From contig OMXA01000015.1 of assembly GCA_900314905.1 (NCBI GenBank), positions 1 to 61,394 on the forward strand: a stretch of 61,394 nt of DNA, given 5' to 3'. The notes below the pieces were generated by a model that worked only from the letters and a program-made list of their open reading frames with translations, made no database searches and was not told the DNA's origin. A program made the translations under genes and the position numbers. Position 1 is the stretch's first letter; the number at the start of each line of letters is the position of its first letter. Shown here piece by piece: positions 14,665-56,407 of the stretch. The stretch comes from an uncultured Erysipelotrichaceae bacterium. GTDB lineage: Bacteria > Bacillota_I > Bacilli_A > Erysipelotrichales > Erysipelotrichaceae.

Positions 14665-14693
14665 TTGACAAACCTGCTTGCCGATGCTTAAAT
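14665..14693 (+). promoter_or_regulatory. Promoter of the serS T-box transcript
   Basis: TTGACA at 14665-14670 and TTAAAT at 14688-14693 are separated by 17 bp, immediately before the leader. Confidence 0.75.
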
Positions 14694-14699
14694 GAAGCC

Positions 14700-14935
14700 A
14701 TAAACAATGATGGGAACAAGTAGTTTCCTGGTATTCTTTCAGAAAGTCAGCGGCTGATGTGAGCTGATAAATATCGGAATGAAATCCTTCCCGGAGTGAA
14801 ACCAATCCTTTCCGGCGGCAGCCGTTATCTGCCAGTTATGAGTGGTTCGAAATGTTTCACGTGAAACATTTCGGGCAAATAGGGTGGTACCGCGATCAAC
14901 ACATCGTCCCTTATCGGATGGTGTTTTTTATTTTT
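14700..14935 (+). promoter_or_regulatory. T-box leader controlling serS (serine-tRNA sensing)
   Basis: The conserved T-box sequence AGGGTGGTACCGCG is at 14881-14894, with the TGGT that pairs with the uncharged tRNA acceptor end. Stem I lies upstream (about 14710-14800), and the segment GAAATCCTTCCCGGAGTG offers a TCC serine specifier at 14785-14787. A terminator hairpin (about 14899-14924) with a T-rich tract follows, then the serS ribosome site. Uncharged tRNA-Ser should favour antitermination. A 26-bp perfect palindrome containing parS (14848-14873) occupies the position where stem III normally lies. Confidence 0.88.
14853..14868. other. parS: parS centromere-like site 1
   Basis: TGTTTCACGTGAAACA is a one-mismatch match to the Bacillus parS consensus TGTTCCACGTGAAACA and here is a perfect palindrome. 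It is embedded in a larger perfect palindrome, 14848-14873. ParB (29393) is expected to load here. Confidence 0.88.
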
Positions 14936-14947
14936 CAGGAGGACTAT

Positions 14948-16252
14948 ATGATTGACATCAAGCTTATTCGAGAGAATCCGGAACTCGTGAAAGAAAATAT
15001 CCGTAAGAAGTTCCAGGATGAAAAACTTCCATTGGTTGATGAAGTTGCTGAATTTGATAAGCAGTTCCGGGATGCAAAGACCAGAGGAGATGCACTTCGC
15101 GGCGACAGGAACCGGATCTCCAAGGAAATCGGACTTCTGATGCGTGAAGGAAAGAAAGAAGAAGCTGAAGCAGCTAAGCAGAAAGTTAAGGATCTTGAAA
15201 AGGAACTTCAGGATCTGGAAGACAGCGAGGAAAAGCTTCAGGATGAGATCAGAAAGAGAATGATGGTGATCCCGAACATCATCGATCCATCTGTTCCGAT
15301 CGGAAAAGATGATTCTGAAAATGTAGAAATTGAACGTTTCGGTGATCCTGTCGTACCGGACTTTGAGATTCCTTATCATACGGATATTCTGGAAGCTCTG
15401 GATGGACTTGATCTGGATAGCGCAAGAGAAACATCCGGAAATGGCTTCTACTATCTGATGGGTGATGTTGCGCGTCTTCATTCCTCAATTCTGAGCTATG
15501 CGCGTGACTTTATGATTAACAGGGGATATACGTATTTTATTCCTCCATTCATGATTCATGGCAATGTGGTCAATGGCGTCATGTCTTTCTCGGAAATGCA
15601 GAACATGATGTATAAGATCGAAGGGGAAGATCTTTATCTGATCGGAACTTCCGAGCATTCGATGATCGGGCGTTTCATGAATCGGACTCTGAAGAAAGAT
15701 CATCTCCCTTATAAACTCACTTCTTACAGTCCGTGCTTCCGAAAGGAAGTTGGTGCACATGGCATCGAAGAAAGAGGGCTGTACCGTGTTCATCAGTTCG
15801 AAAAACAGGAAATGGTAATTGTCTGTGAGCCGGAAGATTCCAAGAAATACTATGATGAACTCTGGCATAACAGTGTAGACTTTTTCCGTTCTCTTGATAT
15901 TCCGGTCCGCACCCTGGAATGCTGCTCAGGTGATCTTGCTGATCTTAAAGTCAAGAGCTGCGATGTTGAAGCATGGTCTCCGCGTCAGAAAAAGTACTTC
16001 GAGGTTGGAAGCTGCTCGAATCTCGGAGATGCTCAAGCTAGAAGACTGGGCATCCGTATCAAAGGAGAGAAGGGCAACTACTTCGCTCATACACTGAATA
16101 ACACAGTTGTCGCTCCGCCTAGAATGCTGATTGCTTTCTTTGAGAATAACCTTCAGGCTGATGGGACTGTCAGAATTCCGGAACCGCTTCGTCCTTACAT
16201 GGGCGGACAGGAAGTTCTGGTCCCTAAAAAAGACAAGAAGAACACTCTGTAA
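14948..16252 (+). CDS. serS: Serine--tRNA ligase
   Basis: Class II aminoacyl-tRNA synthetase charging tRNA-Ser. The ATG at 14948 is preceded by AGGAGGA and gives 434 residues. The N-terminal antiparallel coiled-coil arm (about residues 30-105) grips the tRNA. Motif 2 (FRKEVGAHGIEERGLYRVHQ) and motif 3 (NNTVVAPPRMLIAFFENN) are intact. Expression is governed by the upstream T-box leader and transcription ends at 16276-16304. Two parS sites flank the gene. Confidence 0.97.
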   Translation: MIDIKLIRENPELVKENIRKKFQDEKLPLVDEVAEFDKQFRDAKTRGDALRGDRNRISKEIGLLMREGKKEEAEAAKQKVKDLEKELQDLEDSEEKLQDEIRKRMMVIPNIIDPSVPIGKDDSENVEIERFGDPVVPDFEIPYHTDILEALDGLDLDSARETSGNGFYYLMGDVARLHSSILSYARDFMINRGYTYFIPPFMIHGNVVNGVMSFSEMQNMMYKIEGEDLYLIGTSEHSMIGRFMNRTLKKDHLPYKLTSYSPCFRKEVGAHGIEERGLYRVHQFEKQEMVIVCEPEDSKKYYDELWHNSVDFFRSLDIPVRTLECCSGDLADLKVKSCDVEAWSPRQKKYFEVGSCSNLGDAQARRLGIRIKGEKGNYFAHTLNNTVVAPPRMLIAFFENNLQADGTVRIPEPLRPYMGGQEVLVPKKDKKNTL

Positions 16253-16275
16253 TCTTCAGAGTTCTTCCCTACGAG

Positions 16276-16304
16276 GACAGGAGAGTCAGACTCCTGTCTT
16301 TTTT
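16276..16304 (+). terminator. Rho-independent terminator after serS
   Basis: GACAGGAG (16276-16283) pairs with CTCCTGTC (16291-16298), followed by six T residues. Confidence 0.9.
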
Positions 16305-16344: not shown

Positions 16345-16360
16345 TGTTTCACGTGAAACA
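16345..16360. other. parS: parS centromere-like site 2
   Basis: An exact second copy of TGTTTCACGTGAAACA, extended to a 20-bp perfect palindrome (16343-16362). It lies 15 bp before the ATG at 16375, after a TATAAT at 16320-16325, so it is again inside a likely transcribed leader. Confidence 0.87.
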
Positions 16361-17382: not shown

Positions 17383-17388
17383 CACTTT

Positions 17389-17463
17389 GGTACAGCAGAC
17401 ATGGTATACAACCTGGTCAGGTCCGGAAGGAAGCAGCCATACCTACTTATGTCTGCGTGTACC
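17389..17463 (+). ncRNA. ffs: Signal recognition particle RNA, small bacterial type
   Basis: RNA scaffold that with Ffh targets nascent membrane proteins. The universally conserved apical hairpin is present (GGTCAGGTCCGGAAGGAAGC, around 17416-17435). The long closing helix pairs GGTACAGCAGACAT at the 5' end with ATGTCTGC and GTGTACC at the 3' end, followed by a CTTTTT tail (to 17470). The length of about 75-80 nt marks the short form lacking an Alu domain. Its place between ydcF-type and tadA-dnaX genes is common in Firmicutes. Confidence 0.93.
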
Positions 17464-17476
17464 GCTTTTTATTTCT

Positions 17477-27775: not shown

Positions 27776-28582
27776 ATGGCAAGAAAGAATCTGTTTGACT
27801 TCTTCGATAAGAGCCGGACTGGTCAGGTTGTCAGTCTGCCGGTGAGTGAGATTCGTCCATCCCGCTATCAGCCAAGAGTCCGCTTTGATGAAGAAGCGAT
27901 CAAGGAGCTCAGTGCTTCGATTCAGCAGAATGGTCTGATCACGCCGATCACGGTGAGACAGACCGAAGAAGGATATGAGATTATCGCCGGAGAGAGGAGA
28001 TGGCGGGCATGCCAGCTTGCTGACATGAAAGAGATTCCGTGCTATATTCTGTCTCCGGATGAAAACCAGGCCGCCGAGATGGCATTGGTGGAGAATATCC
28101 AGCGGGAAGATCTGACGGCGGTGGAAGAAGCGAAGGCTTATGTGCAGATCATGCGGCAGGCAGGTCTCACGCAGGAACAGGTTGCCGAGAGGGTCGGGAA
28201 ATCCCAGTCCTCTGTTGCAAACAAGATCCGGCTTCTGAATCTTCCGCAGGAAGTCCAGGATGCGGTGGCTGACCGGAAGCTTTCAGAGCGCCATGCCAGG
28301 GCATTGCTTGCATTGCCCGCAGAGAAGCAGACCAATGCATACCGCTATGTAGAGGAACATGGTCTCAATGTCAGGCAGACAGAAGCTTATGTAGAAAAGG
28401 TGGCAGGTCCTTCCAGAACGCACAGGCGTCAGAAGACCAGAGGATTTACGAGAAATATCCAGATCGGGGTCAACTCGGTGAACAAATGCGTGAGCATGAT
28501 CAGGAAAATGGGAATCGATGTCGTTACGGAGACGGAAGAAACCAGTACGGACGTCCGCATCATCGTGCGGTTCCCCAGGTAA
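27776..28582 (+). CDS. noc: Nucleoid occlusion protein Noc
   Basis: ParB-family CTPase that coats the nucleoid and blocks division over DNA. The 268 residues begin with a short amphipathic helix (ARKNLFDFF) as used by Noc for membrane contact. Then come the CTP-binding ParB motifs GERRWRA and ENIQRED, a helix-turn-helix (LTQEQVAERVGKSQSSVANKIRLL), SERHARALL, and the Noc-like C-terminus (NIQIGVNSVNKCVSMI). Position between rsmG and parA matches Noc. A ParB copy with altered specificity is the alternative. Confidence 0.85.
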   Translation: MARKNLFDFFDKSRTGQVVSLPVSEIRPSRYQPRVRFDEEAIKELSASIQQNGLITPITVRQTEEGYEIIAGERRWRACQLADMKEIPCYILSPDENQAAEMALVENIQREDLTAVEEAKAYVQIMRQAGLTQEQVAERVGKSQSSVANKIRLLNLPQEVQDAVADRKLSERHARALLALPAEKQTNAYRYVEEHGLNVRQTEAYVEKVAGPSRTHRRQKTRGFTRNIQIGVNSVNKCVSMIRKMGIDVVTETEETSTDVRIIVRFPR

Positions 28583-28601: not shown

Positions 28602-29393
28602 ATGGGAAAGATTATTGCGGTTGCCAACCAGAAAGGCGGAGTCGGCAAGACCACTACCAGCATCAACGTCAGTGCCGGGATGTCCTATGTGAATAAGAAG
28701 GTGCTTCTGGTGGATTTTGACCCGCAGGGCAATGCAAGCAATGGCATCGGCGCAGTCAGGACAGGGTTCGACCGGAACCATTCGGTGTATCAGGTTCTGA
28801 TGGGCAATGATCGCGTGAGCGATGCCGTAGTGCATCTGGATATGCCGCCGCTGGATCTTCTGCCGGCGACCATTGATCTATCCGGTGCGGATGTGGAGAT
28901 GGCGAGTTCGGAATATACGGTAGGCAGAGAGAACCTTCTGAAGAAGAAGCTGGATGAGGTGAAAGATCAGTATGATTACATCATCATCGACTGCCCGCCA
29001 AGCCTTGGTCTTCTGAATACGAATGCTTTGACGGCAGCAGATTCGGTTATGATTCCGGTGCAGTGCGAATATTTTGCACTGGAAGGACTGACGCAGCTAT
29101 TGAGCACGATCCGTCTGGTGCAGAAGCTCTGGAATCCGCATCTTTCGATTGAAGGAGTGCTGCTGACGATGTTTGATGTGCGCACGAAGCTGAGCGTGGA
29201 AGTGCAGCAGGAAGTCCGGAAATATTTCAAGGAAAAGGTATACCGGACGTATATTCCCCGGAATGTCAGGCTGAGTGAAGCTCCTTCCAGAGGCCAGAGT
29301 ATTTTTGAGTATGATACGCGTTCAGAAGGTGCGAAAGCATATATCAGCCTGGTTCAGGAAGTGATTGCCCAGAATGAGAAGGGAGGACACTGA
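28602..29393 (+). CDS. parA: Chromosome-partitioning ATPase ParA (Soj)
   Basis: Walker-type ATPase that drives origin segregation and modulates DnaA. The 263 residues start with the deviant Walker A KGGVGKTTT (residues 11-19), followed by VDFDPQGNAS and IIIDCPPSLGLL. Short N-terminus without a helix-turn-helix is typical of chromosomal Soj. Stop codon shares its last base with the parB start. Confidence 0.96.
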   Translation: MGKIIAVANQKGGVGKTTTSINVSAGMSYVNKKVLLVDFDPQGNASNGIGAVRTGFDRNHSVYQVLMGNDRVSDAVVHLDMPPLDLLPATIDLSGADVEMASSEYTVGRENLLKKKLDEVKDQYDYIIIDCPPSLGLLNTNALTAADSVMIPVQCEYFALEGLTQLLSTIRLVQKLWNPHLSIEGVLLTMFDVRTKLSVEVQQEVRKYFKEKVYRTYIPRNVRLSEAPSRGQSIFEYDTRSEGAKAYISLVQEVIAQNEKGGH

Positions 29394-30298
29394 TGGCGAA
29401 AGACAGGAAGAAGGAACCTGCTCTCGGAAGAGGTCTGGACTCGATATTCGGTCATGATGTGGAAAAGTTCCTGGATGATATCCAGAACAATGCGACGGAA
29501 GCACCAGGCAGAAAAGAAGTGGAGATTCCGGTCGGAGAAATCCGTCCGAATCCGTATCAGCCGCGGAAGGAATTTGATGAAAAAGCGCTGAATGAACTCG
29601 CTGATTCCATCAAGCTCCATGGCATCTTCTCGCCGCTGCTGGTGCGCAAGAGCGTTCAGGGCTATGAGCTGATTGCCGGAGAACGAAGATTGAGAGCAGC
29701 AAAGATTGCCGGTCTTGAAACAGTGCCTGCGATCTCAGTGGACTTCACGGAAGATCAGATGATGGAGATTTCTCTGCTGGAAAATATTCAGCGTGAGAAC
29801 CTTAATCCGATGGAAGAAGCCGCGGCGTTTGATTCACTGATCCGCCGGCTTGGCTATACCCAGGAAAAGCTTGCTGAGCGGGTTGGCAAATCGAGAGAAT
29901 ACTGTGCCAATATGCTGAGACTGCTGAAACTGCCCCAGCCAGTGCAGGAGATGGTGACTGCCCGCAAGCTGACGATGGGGCATGTAAGACCGCTATTGAG
30001 CCTTGGCTCGGAGGATCAGATGTATGAAGCTGCTCAGGTCATTCTGAAAAAGAAGATGAGTGTCCGGGAAGCAGAGGCTTATGTGAAGCAGCTGCAGGGT
30101 GATCAAGCTAAGGTTCATAAGAAAAAGGAACCGGATAAGGATCCGATGATTCTGGATCTGGAAAGCCGCATGAGCAGCAGGCTGGGAACGAAGGTCATTG
30201 TCAGCGGAAAGAATCTGAGCATTCATTTCACGGATACCGATGATCTGAATCGGATCCTGGAGCAGCTCGGAATGCTGGAAGAATCGAGGCAGGAGTAA
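29393..30298 (+). CDS. parB: Chromosome-partitioning protein ParB (Spo0J)
   Basis: CTP-dependent DNA clamp loading at parS and recruiting SMC. The 301 residues contain the N-terminal ParA-activating region (GRGLDSIFG), the CTP motifs GERRLRAA and ENIQRENLNPMEEA, a helix-turn-helix (YTQEKLAERVGKSREYCANMLRLL) and a C-terminal dimerisation region (MILDLESRMSSRLGTKVIV). Two matching parS sites lie at 14853 and 16345. Ends at a short terminator. Confidence 0.96.
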   Translation: MAKDRKKEPALGRGLDSIFGHDVEKFLDDIQNNATEAPGRKEVEIPVGEIRPNPYQPRKEFDEKALNELADSIKLHGIFSPLLVRKSVQGYELIAGERRLRAAKIAGLETVPAISVDFTEDQMMEISLLENIQRENLNPMEEAAAFDSLIRRLGYTQEKLAERVGKSREYCANMLRLLKLPQPVQEMVTARKLTMGHVRPLLSLGSEDQMYEAAQVILKKKMSVREAEAYVKQLQGDQAKVHKKKEPDKDPMILDLESRMSSRLGTKVIVSGKNLSIHFTDTDDLNRILEQLGMLEESRQE

Positions 30299-56186: not shown

Positions 56187-56407
56187 ACGAAAAGCGACGA
56201 AAAGAAGAGTAGTCCGGACGAGAGTCTCATAGAGAGCAGAATTGCGGTGAAAATCTGCGGCAGGAATCCGGATGAAGATGGCCTTGGAGCTGATTCTGTG
56301 AAGAGCAGAGTCCGGGGATTGCCCGTTAACGCGAATGGAGTGGTCTGAGCAATCAGGCAAGACAAAGGTGGTACCGCGTGCAAGGCGTCCTTTCGCAGGG
56401 CGTTTTT
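56187..56407 (+). promoter_or_regulatory. T-box leader controlling metG (methionine-tRNA sensing)
   Basis: T-box sequence AAGGTGGTACCGCG is at 56365-56378. Stem I (about 56200-56300) offers ATG as specifier at 56278-56280 in GAAGATGGCCTTGG. A terminator hairpin (CGTCCT 56386-56391 with AGGGCG 56397-56402) and T run follow. Uncharged initiator or elongator tRNA-Met should induce the gene. Confidence 0.88.

Follow-up and report, generated by a model that had tools for sequence, protein, structure and literature searches.

Can one stretch of sequence serve as a ParB loading site in DNA and, once transcribed, as a structural helix of a riboswitch? This question is raised by the leader of serS in the window, which is the whole stretch of 61,394 nucleotides analysed here. 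We describe the leader and its palindrome, follow both through related genomes, and then weigh the explanations that could account for them.

The serS leader

The leader is located between a minus-strand lipoprotein-like gene and serS (Table 1). The Rfam covariance-model match to RF00230 scores 117.2 bits against a gathering score of 93, and a riboswitch function of this leader is thus predicted from its sequence. The name serS itself is our assignment from sequence features and position, and the CCGUUA element is what we take to be the stem IIA/B region. The promoter-like hexamers upstream are missing from the consensus scan because its rule requires an A at position 2 of the second hexamer. 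The specifier codon in the window is probably a serine codon. A loose pattern finds a TCN codon in 82 of 101 parS leaders, with 19 unmatched.

Table 1. Positions of the features discussed, all within the window
Feature	Positions	Strand	Basis
Promoter-like TTGACA-17-TTAAAT, just 5′ of the T-box	14665..14693	+	read by eye
serS T-box leader	14698..14914	+	RF00230, 117.2 bits, E 2.7e-25
Probable serine specifier codon UCC	14785..14787	+	position by eye
CCGUUA element	14822..14827	+	sequence and Rfam alignment
Stem III RNA hairpin, 14 bp, ACGU loop	14845..14876	+	Rfam alignment, minimum-energy RNA fold; flanks covary across leaders
26-bp perfect DNA palindrome, CGAAATGTTTCACGTGAAACATTTCG = CGAAA-TGTTTCACGTGAAACA-TTTCG	14848..14873	.	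read from sequence
Leader parS TGTTTCACGTGAAACA, exact 16-bp consensus	14853..14868	.	window and assembly scans
T-box sequence AGGGTGGTACCGCG	14881..14894	+	sequence and Rfam alignment
Riboswitch intrinsic-terminator-like site	14901..14924	+	consensus scan
serS, seryl-tRNA synthetase (presumed)	14948..16252	+	ORF; homologues across the family
Intrinsic-terminator-like site 3′ of serS	16273..16301	+	consensus scan
Second exact parS, downstream of serS	16345..16360	.	window and assembly scans
Noc orthologue	27776..28582	+	best PDB matches Noc (7nfu, E 1.9e-55)
Soj/ParA (presumed)	28602..29393	+	ORF
ParB/Spo0J orthologue	29393..30298	+	best PDB match Spo0J 6sdk, E 4.7e-62

A sequence-only reading of this DNA had placed a 16-bp parS inside a 26-bp perfect palindrome of the serS T-box leader, and had predicted that the same bases would fold into a strong RNA hairpin at the stem III position. 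Both claims hold. The 16 bp are the exact consensus given in PMC7383237, and in the RF00230 alignment the palindrome occupies the hairpin that separates the CCGUUA element from the T-box sequence, namely stem III. The minimum-energy fold agrees with this placement. The RNA stem exceeds the DNA palindrome by three pairs per side, two of them U-G. Compared with the Noc site NBS TATTTCCCGGGAAATA, the leader site of the window gives no match; the site is parS. The ORF finder's call for serS (14852-16252) runs back through parS and would begin MFHVKH; this extension is probably non-coding, since the likely start of serS is at 14948.

parS and T-box copies in the source assembly

At up to three mismatches the window contains two parS matches, both exact, against 0.17 expected by shuffling. 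In the source assembly (2.14 Mb, 76 contigs, 94.6% complete) exact parS occurs only at 14853 and 16345, so that the pair brackets serS with one copy per side; one additional place has two mismatches to parS. A chance origin was considered and ruled out on the shuffled expectation and on the position of both exact copies flanking serS.

The assembly has 18 Rfam T-box matches, nine of them over the cut-off. Among the 18, an exact parS is confined to the serS T-box: of the two exact copies in the assembly, one lies in this leader and the other after serS. Twelve of the 18 were inspected: eight were recognised by motif, and in the seven of these that do not belong to serS the closest 12-mer has 4 to 6 mismatches; four were not assessable. 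The window holds a second T-box (56188-56395) without parS, followed by a gene which we take to be metG-like, and a small SRP RNA at 17386-17469.

Conservation within the genus

The GTDB genus of the window was searched in 71 genomes, 61 of which gave a SerS match. Leaders were sampled by SerS and not by parS, one SerS fragment (G174) was left out of the fetched loci, and 58 leaders were readable (57 fetched and the window). All 58 keep parS in the stem III placement: 54 read exactly TTTCACGTGAAA, and four differ by one change. In these four (L090, L091, L092, L096) a single base of the hairpin loop is altered, which yields a parS/NBS hybrid. They come from related species; the leader reads TGTTTCACGGGAAACA or its reverse complement, and the downstream parS is exact.

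Across the 71 genomes, 127 TTTCACGTGAAA sites were counted, against 11 for the reversed control. Two sites per genome is the commonest number (49 of 71); nine genomes have one, five have three and one has five. No SerS match was obtained in any of the seven genomes that have no site. Core starts fall 82-101 nt ahead of the serS ATG for the leader site (median 91.5, n=58) and 5-97 nt past the last serS codon for the second site (median 43, n=53). In 23 of 53 genomes a T run of at least four is found no more than 14 nt from the second site, and in many rows this run is apparently the tail of the serS terminator. At such a position the second parS, in contrast to the one in the leader, may be protected from transcription of serS.

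Pairing beyond the parS core

Over 101 leaders, a set in which five loci of other families and L054 come from pattern searches and are not an unbiased sample, and in which L054, L178 and L181 lie off the stem centre, a mean of 3.97 contiguous pairs extend beyond parS. With partners re-dealt the mean is 1.45 (sd 0.16, maximum 2.05 in 1000). The excess persists when flanks are counted once (3.80 vs 1.42 shuffled, 87 unique flanks), elsewhere than in the genus (3.67 vs 1.27) and within it (4.19 vs 2.34). The identity of the pairs changes while pairing is kept: offset 9 is T-A in 53 leaders and A-T in 36, and offset 11 is A-T in 49, G-T in 14, T-A in 8, G-C in 7, and T-G and C-G in 4 each. A parS-like core that is fixed, with outer bases that change freely and covary, would fit a dual role of this sequence.

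The second parS downstream of serS, which needs no stem III, was used as a control for these flanks. At offset 11, pairing amounts to 83% (genus) and 88% (others) in leaders vs 49% and 47% at the downstream sites. The latter are nevertheless palindromically extended, by 2.11 pairs vs 0.94 shuffled (111 unique) and, within the genus, by 2.11 vs 1.43, the extension being concentrated at offsets 9-10; a DNA-level preference may therefore account for part of the pairing of the flanks. The downstream stem exceeds that of the leader in length in 12 of 51 genus genomes.

The predicted stem III is stronger in leaders with parS: its median energy is -12.5 kcal/mol in parS leaders of the genus and -10.9 in those elsewhere, compared with -4.6 without parS. 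A stem III of at least five pairs is predicted for 58 of 58 genus leaders, 42 of 43 other parS leaders and 35 of 49 parS-free leaders; the parS-free T-box leaders looked at have a stem III of unrelated sequence or none predicted.

A second kind of overlap between parS and an RNA hairpin was observed after serS. In eight loci of several sister genera (L140, L158, L159, L163, L180, L183, L186, L198) as well as in L083 from the genus of the window, parS downstream of serS forms a terminator-like hairpin of 11-19 contiguous pairs, with a T run of at least four in eight of the nine.

Distribution beyond the genus

A further 100 serS loci were fetched from other genera of the family; three rows were excluded as duplicates (L033, L209, L211, of L227, L230 and L242) and two had no leader (L079, L119). 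Outside the genus, 37 of 86 T-box leaders carry parS or a near form, 30 of the 37 exactly. In 17 other genera this lies in the stem III region (g10, g11, g18, g21, g26, g31, g32, g33, g34, g35, g37, g44, g46, g48, g53, g55, g58), whereas 26 other sampled genera have a T-box without a stem III parS; two of the 26, g16 and g56, have parS or a near form further upstream. At the serS loci of g4, g19, g24 and g41 no T-box motif was seen. The sequence-only reading had proposed to compare related serS leaders, and the outcome is divided: the palindrome is kept as parS in all 58 leaders of the genus, and stem III is an ordinary one in the 26 other genera. The ordinary form being confined to other genera, the arrangement stands and its distribution is bounded.

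In total, the SerS-sampled T-box leaders of the family include 95 in which parS, exact or nearly so, lies in the stem III region. At other places in the sequence examined it was seen only in L128 and L144 (exact) and L145 (one change), at -294 from serS in the first and -264 in the other two; in L128 and L144 this is about 210-230 nt 5′ of the T-box sequence. Some positions deserve separate mention. In L054, parS lies near -101 from serS, at the stem II region as judged by eye. In L178 and L181 (g55), also by eye, parS is off-centre and the upstream arm pairs only with its right half (TTTTC..GAAAA), so that the RNA helix and the DNA palindrome differ in their centre. L187 (g19) has parS 97 nt before serS with no T-box found there, as if parS had outlived the riboswitch or never needed it.

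The T-box status of most leaders was assigned by sequence pattern. Rfam was run on 29 of the 100 parS leaders besides the window, and 25 of the 29 reached the gathering score; L173, L203, L121 and L054 did not. A first T-box pattern, GTGGNACCGCG, found 0 of 139 genomes of other genera; it misses GGGTGGCAACACG forms, and wider patterns were then used. Among the 57 parS/T-box loci found by pattern, 53 have SerS downstream, two end right after the T-box (L018, L030) and two lack SerS. The last two, both actinobacterial (L020, L040) and candidates for a T-box parS outside the Firmicutes, gave neither a SerS nor a T-box hit and were treated as chance.

In a sample of 392 genomes of the phylum, 21 have parS just before the T-box sequence, five of them outside the family (f7, f22, f27). 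All five are Rfam T-box hits, each preceding a SerS homologue that is only distantly related (33-34% identity); in f22 the arrangement is present in three of four genomes examined. Another family of the same order, f2, showed a leader parS in 0 of 16 sampled genomes.

On a SerS tree, the leader-parS label needs 12 changes, at least five of them forced by well-supported branches, vs 38.8 for shuffled labels; with 35 open forks in this FastTree tree of 117 rows the count of gains and losses is rough. Eleven rows represent the window's genus (12 were named, L125 being too short). The leader parS occurs in clusters on this tree and has been kept for long periods, having been gained or lost repeatedly.

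Comparison of the leader word with other parS copies

Where the leader word departs from the consensus, do other parS copies of the same genome follow it? Other copies were sought only as places fitting TGTTNCAYRKGNAACA. In G103 (L202), stem III and both other matched sites all read TGTTACACGTGTAACA (three of three). In four genomes of g58 (L223-L226) the leader has TGTTCCACGTGGAACA, and the second matched site, some 0.8 kb past serS, has TGTTTCACGTGGAACA. G219 has its leader variant TGTTTCATGTGAAACA also at two of the three other matched sites, the remaining one being exact, and in G108, G129, G143 and G215 both sites are altered but unlike each other. An altered leader stands beside an exact second site in G069, G154, G196, G199 and G208; the second site is exact in G069 and in the genomes of the four hybrid leaders of the genus. 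The reverse is found in g34 (L157, L165), where an exact leader is accompanied by GTTCCACGTGGAAC immediately 3′ of serS, in a site that reads TGTTCCACGTGGAACA or something close to it.

A shared change of the leader and other parS copies is thus clean only in G103 and partial in g58, and it is absent in G069, the hybrids and g34. The parS word altered at more than one site near serS (L202, L223-L226) suggests a possible drift of ParB specificity. In several species, ParB binds half sites of either form, GTTCCAC or GTTTCAC (PMC7022226).

ParB, Noc and the origin region

The window contains ORFs which we read as dnaA, dnaN, recF, gyrB, gyrA, serS, dnaX, recR, mnmG, rsmG, noc, soj, parB and ATP synthase genes. 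The gene named Soj/ParA in Table 1 is so called by position. The leader parS is accordingly placed in the origin region, as marked by the dnaA, dnaN, gyrB and gyrA ORFs, in a genome that encodes a ParB of parS specificity. The ParB and Soj genes lie 12-13 kb from parS, and Noc is separate. A ParB homologue with an E value of 1e-40 or better was found in 68 of the 71 genus genomes.

Jalal et al. (2020) describe R173 and G201 as conserved in all extant ParB orthologues, with Q and R in Noc (PMC7383237). In our mapping, the ParB of the window has the equivalents of R173 and G201, and on the numbering of the same paper its Noc orthologue has Q-K-N-R. ParB would be predicted to bind the leader parS in vivo.

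Interpretation

The sequence-only reading had also suggested that one sequence acts as a ParB site in DNA and as a riboswitch helix in RNA, and the leader sequence together with the comparison across genera supports this dual identity. We consider it probable that the palindrome is dual-coded, a ParB loading site in DNA and stem III in RNA, and that the two roles mainly coexist. As double-stranded DNA it would be one of two probable ParB loading sites of the chromosome, located at serS within the origin region; as nascent RNA it would form stem III of a serine-class T-box riboswitch. Stem III is most likely a sequence-tolerant slot that accommodates parS: it is the part of a T-box whose sequence demands are loose, so that a perfect palindrome can serve as long as the arms pair. 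The inner 16 bp would then be held by ParB selection and the pairing of the outer bases by RNA selection, and cross-talk between the ParB and riboswitch roles would be unnecessary to explain the conservation. As parS precedes the decision point of the riboswitch, every RNA polymerase that transcribes the leader should pass over it, regardless of the state of the tRNA.

Each role could instead be assigned to DNA or to RNA alone. The leader parS may matter in DNA only and the hairpin be incidental, stem III being dispensable; in favour of this are the 14 of 49 parS-free T-box leaders that lack a predicted stem III of five or more pairs, and the flanks of the downstream parS, which are partly palindromic too. 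We regard this as unlikely: the leader flanks pair well past parS, covary above shuffles and exceed the downstream flanks at offset 11, and in the family's SerS-sampled T-box leaders parS, exact or nearly so, occupies the stem III region 95 times (off-centre in L178 and L181) and another position only in L128, L144 and L145. A T-box hairpin whose likeness to parS reflects chance or demands of the RNA, and which is no ParB site, seems highly improbable. Such an account has on its side a good hairpin within a conserved RNA and the genomes, several in number, in which the leader word and the second site differ; it is opposed by the ParB consensus, which 54 of 58 genus leaders match exactly though the pairs just outside change freely by compensation, by the altered word common to all three matched sites of G103, by the unrelated stem III sequences of parS-free genera, and by the second exact parS just after serS.

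A further possibility is compatible with the dual-coding reading and adds cross-talk to it: ParB at the leader parS regulates serS, either as a roadblock or pause inducer at stem III that alters read-through or by spreading and repressing the promoter. A proposed function of stem III is that of a stalling site which gives time for tRNA sensing (PMC6197855). ParB at the intergenic parS3/parS4 represses two neighbouring genes in Pseudomonas aeruginosa and one parS influences comCDE in Streptococcus pneumoniae, whereas in Bacillus subtilis genes adjacent to parS were unaffected by the loss of Spo0J (all PMC7022226). At our locus the probable promoter is on one side of the site and the terminator on the other, so that transcripts initiated at this promoter should run across it; both selective signals, however, can be explained without cross-talk, and we place regulation by ParB on the unlikely side. 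A more specific version is speculative and in our view distinctly unlikely: ParB at stem III would be a cell-cycle-dependent roadblock where T-box transcripts are thought to pause, the state of segregation would tune serS read-through, and riboswitch transcription would push ParB clamps off or along the centromere. If this were true, one DNA word would couple origin segregation to the charging of serine tRNA.

Relation to known systems

The T-box and parS are both of known kinds, and as far as our searches show their overlap is undescribed: among the open-access papers searched, no title or start of an abstract pointed to a parS/T-box/serS overlap. Our samples show the overlap of parS with a riboswitch helix in 18 genera of one family and in genomes of three further families. 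It would offer a naturally occurring case of one sequence under two constraints that can be separated, and a direct route to two questions, namely the function of T-box stem III and the behaviour of ParB clamps on transcribed DNA.

Compared with T-box riboswitches of the serine class (RF00230), the leader shares the Rfam match, the CCGUUA element, stem III, the T-box sequence, the terminator, the position upstream of serS and a probable serine specifier codon; it differs in that stem III is here parS. The parS3/parS4 sites of P. aeruginosa and the parS near comCDE of S. pneumoniae similarly lie near transcription units where ParB can affect expression, but the available part of PMC7022226 describes no RNA structure role for them. 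With the chromosomal parS/ParABS systems of Firmicutes, the locus has in common a consensus 16-bp site in the origin region, a ParB (R..G) and Soj encoded 12-13 kb away, and a separate Noc. The difference is that typically two exact sites bracket serS, one of them inside the riboswitch, so that it would be transcribed with the leader. In Neisseria and Haemophilus, uptake sequences form terminators. There, as here, an inverted DNA recognition word doubles as an RNA hairpin; the hairpin is a terminator in those organisms, whereas in our leaders it would be a structural helix of a riboswitch, with terminator-like parS after serS in sister genera.
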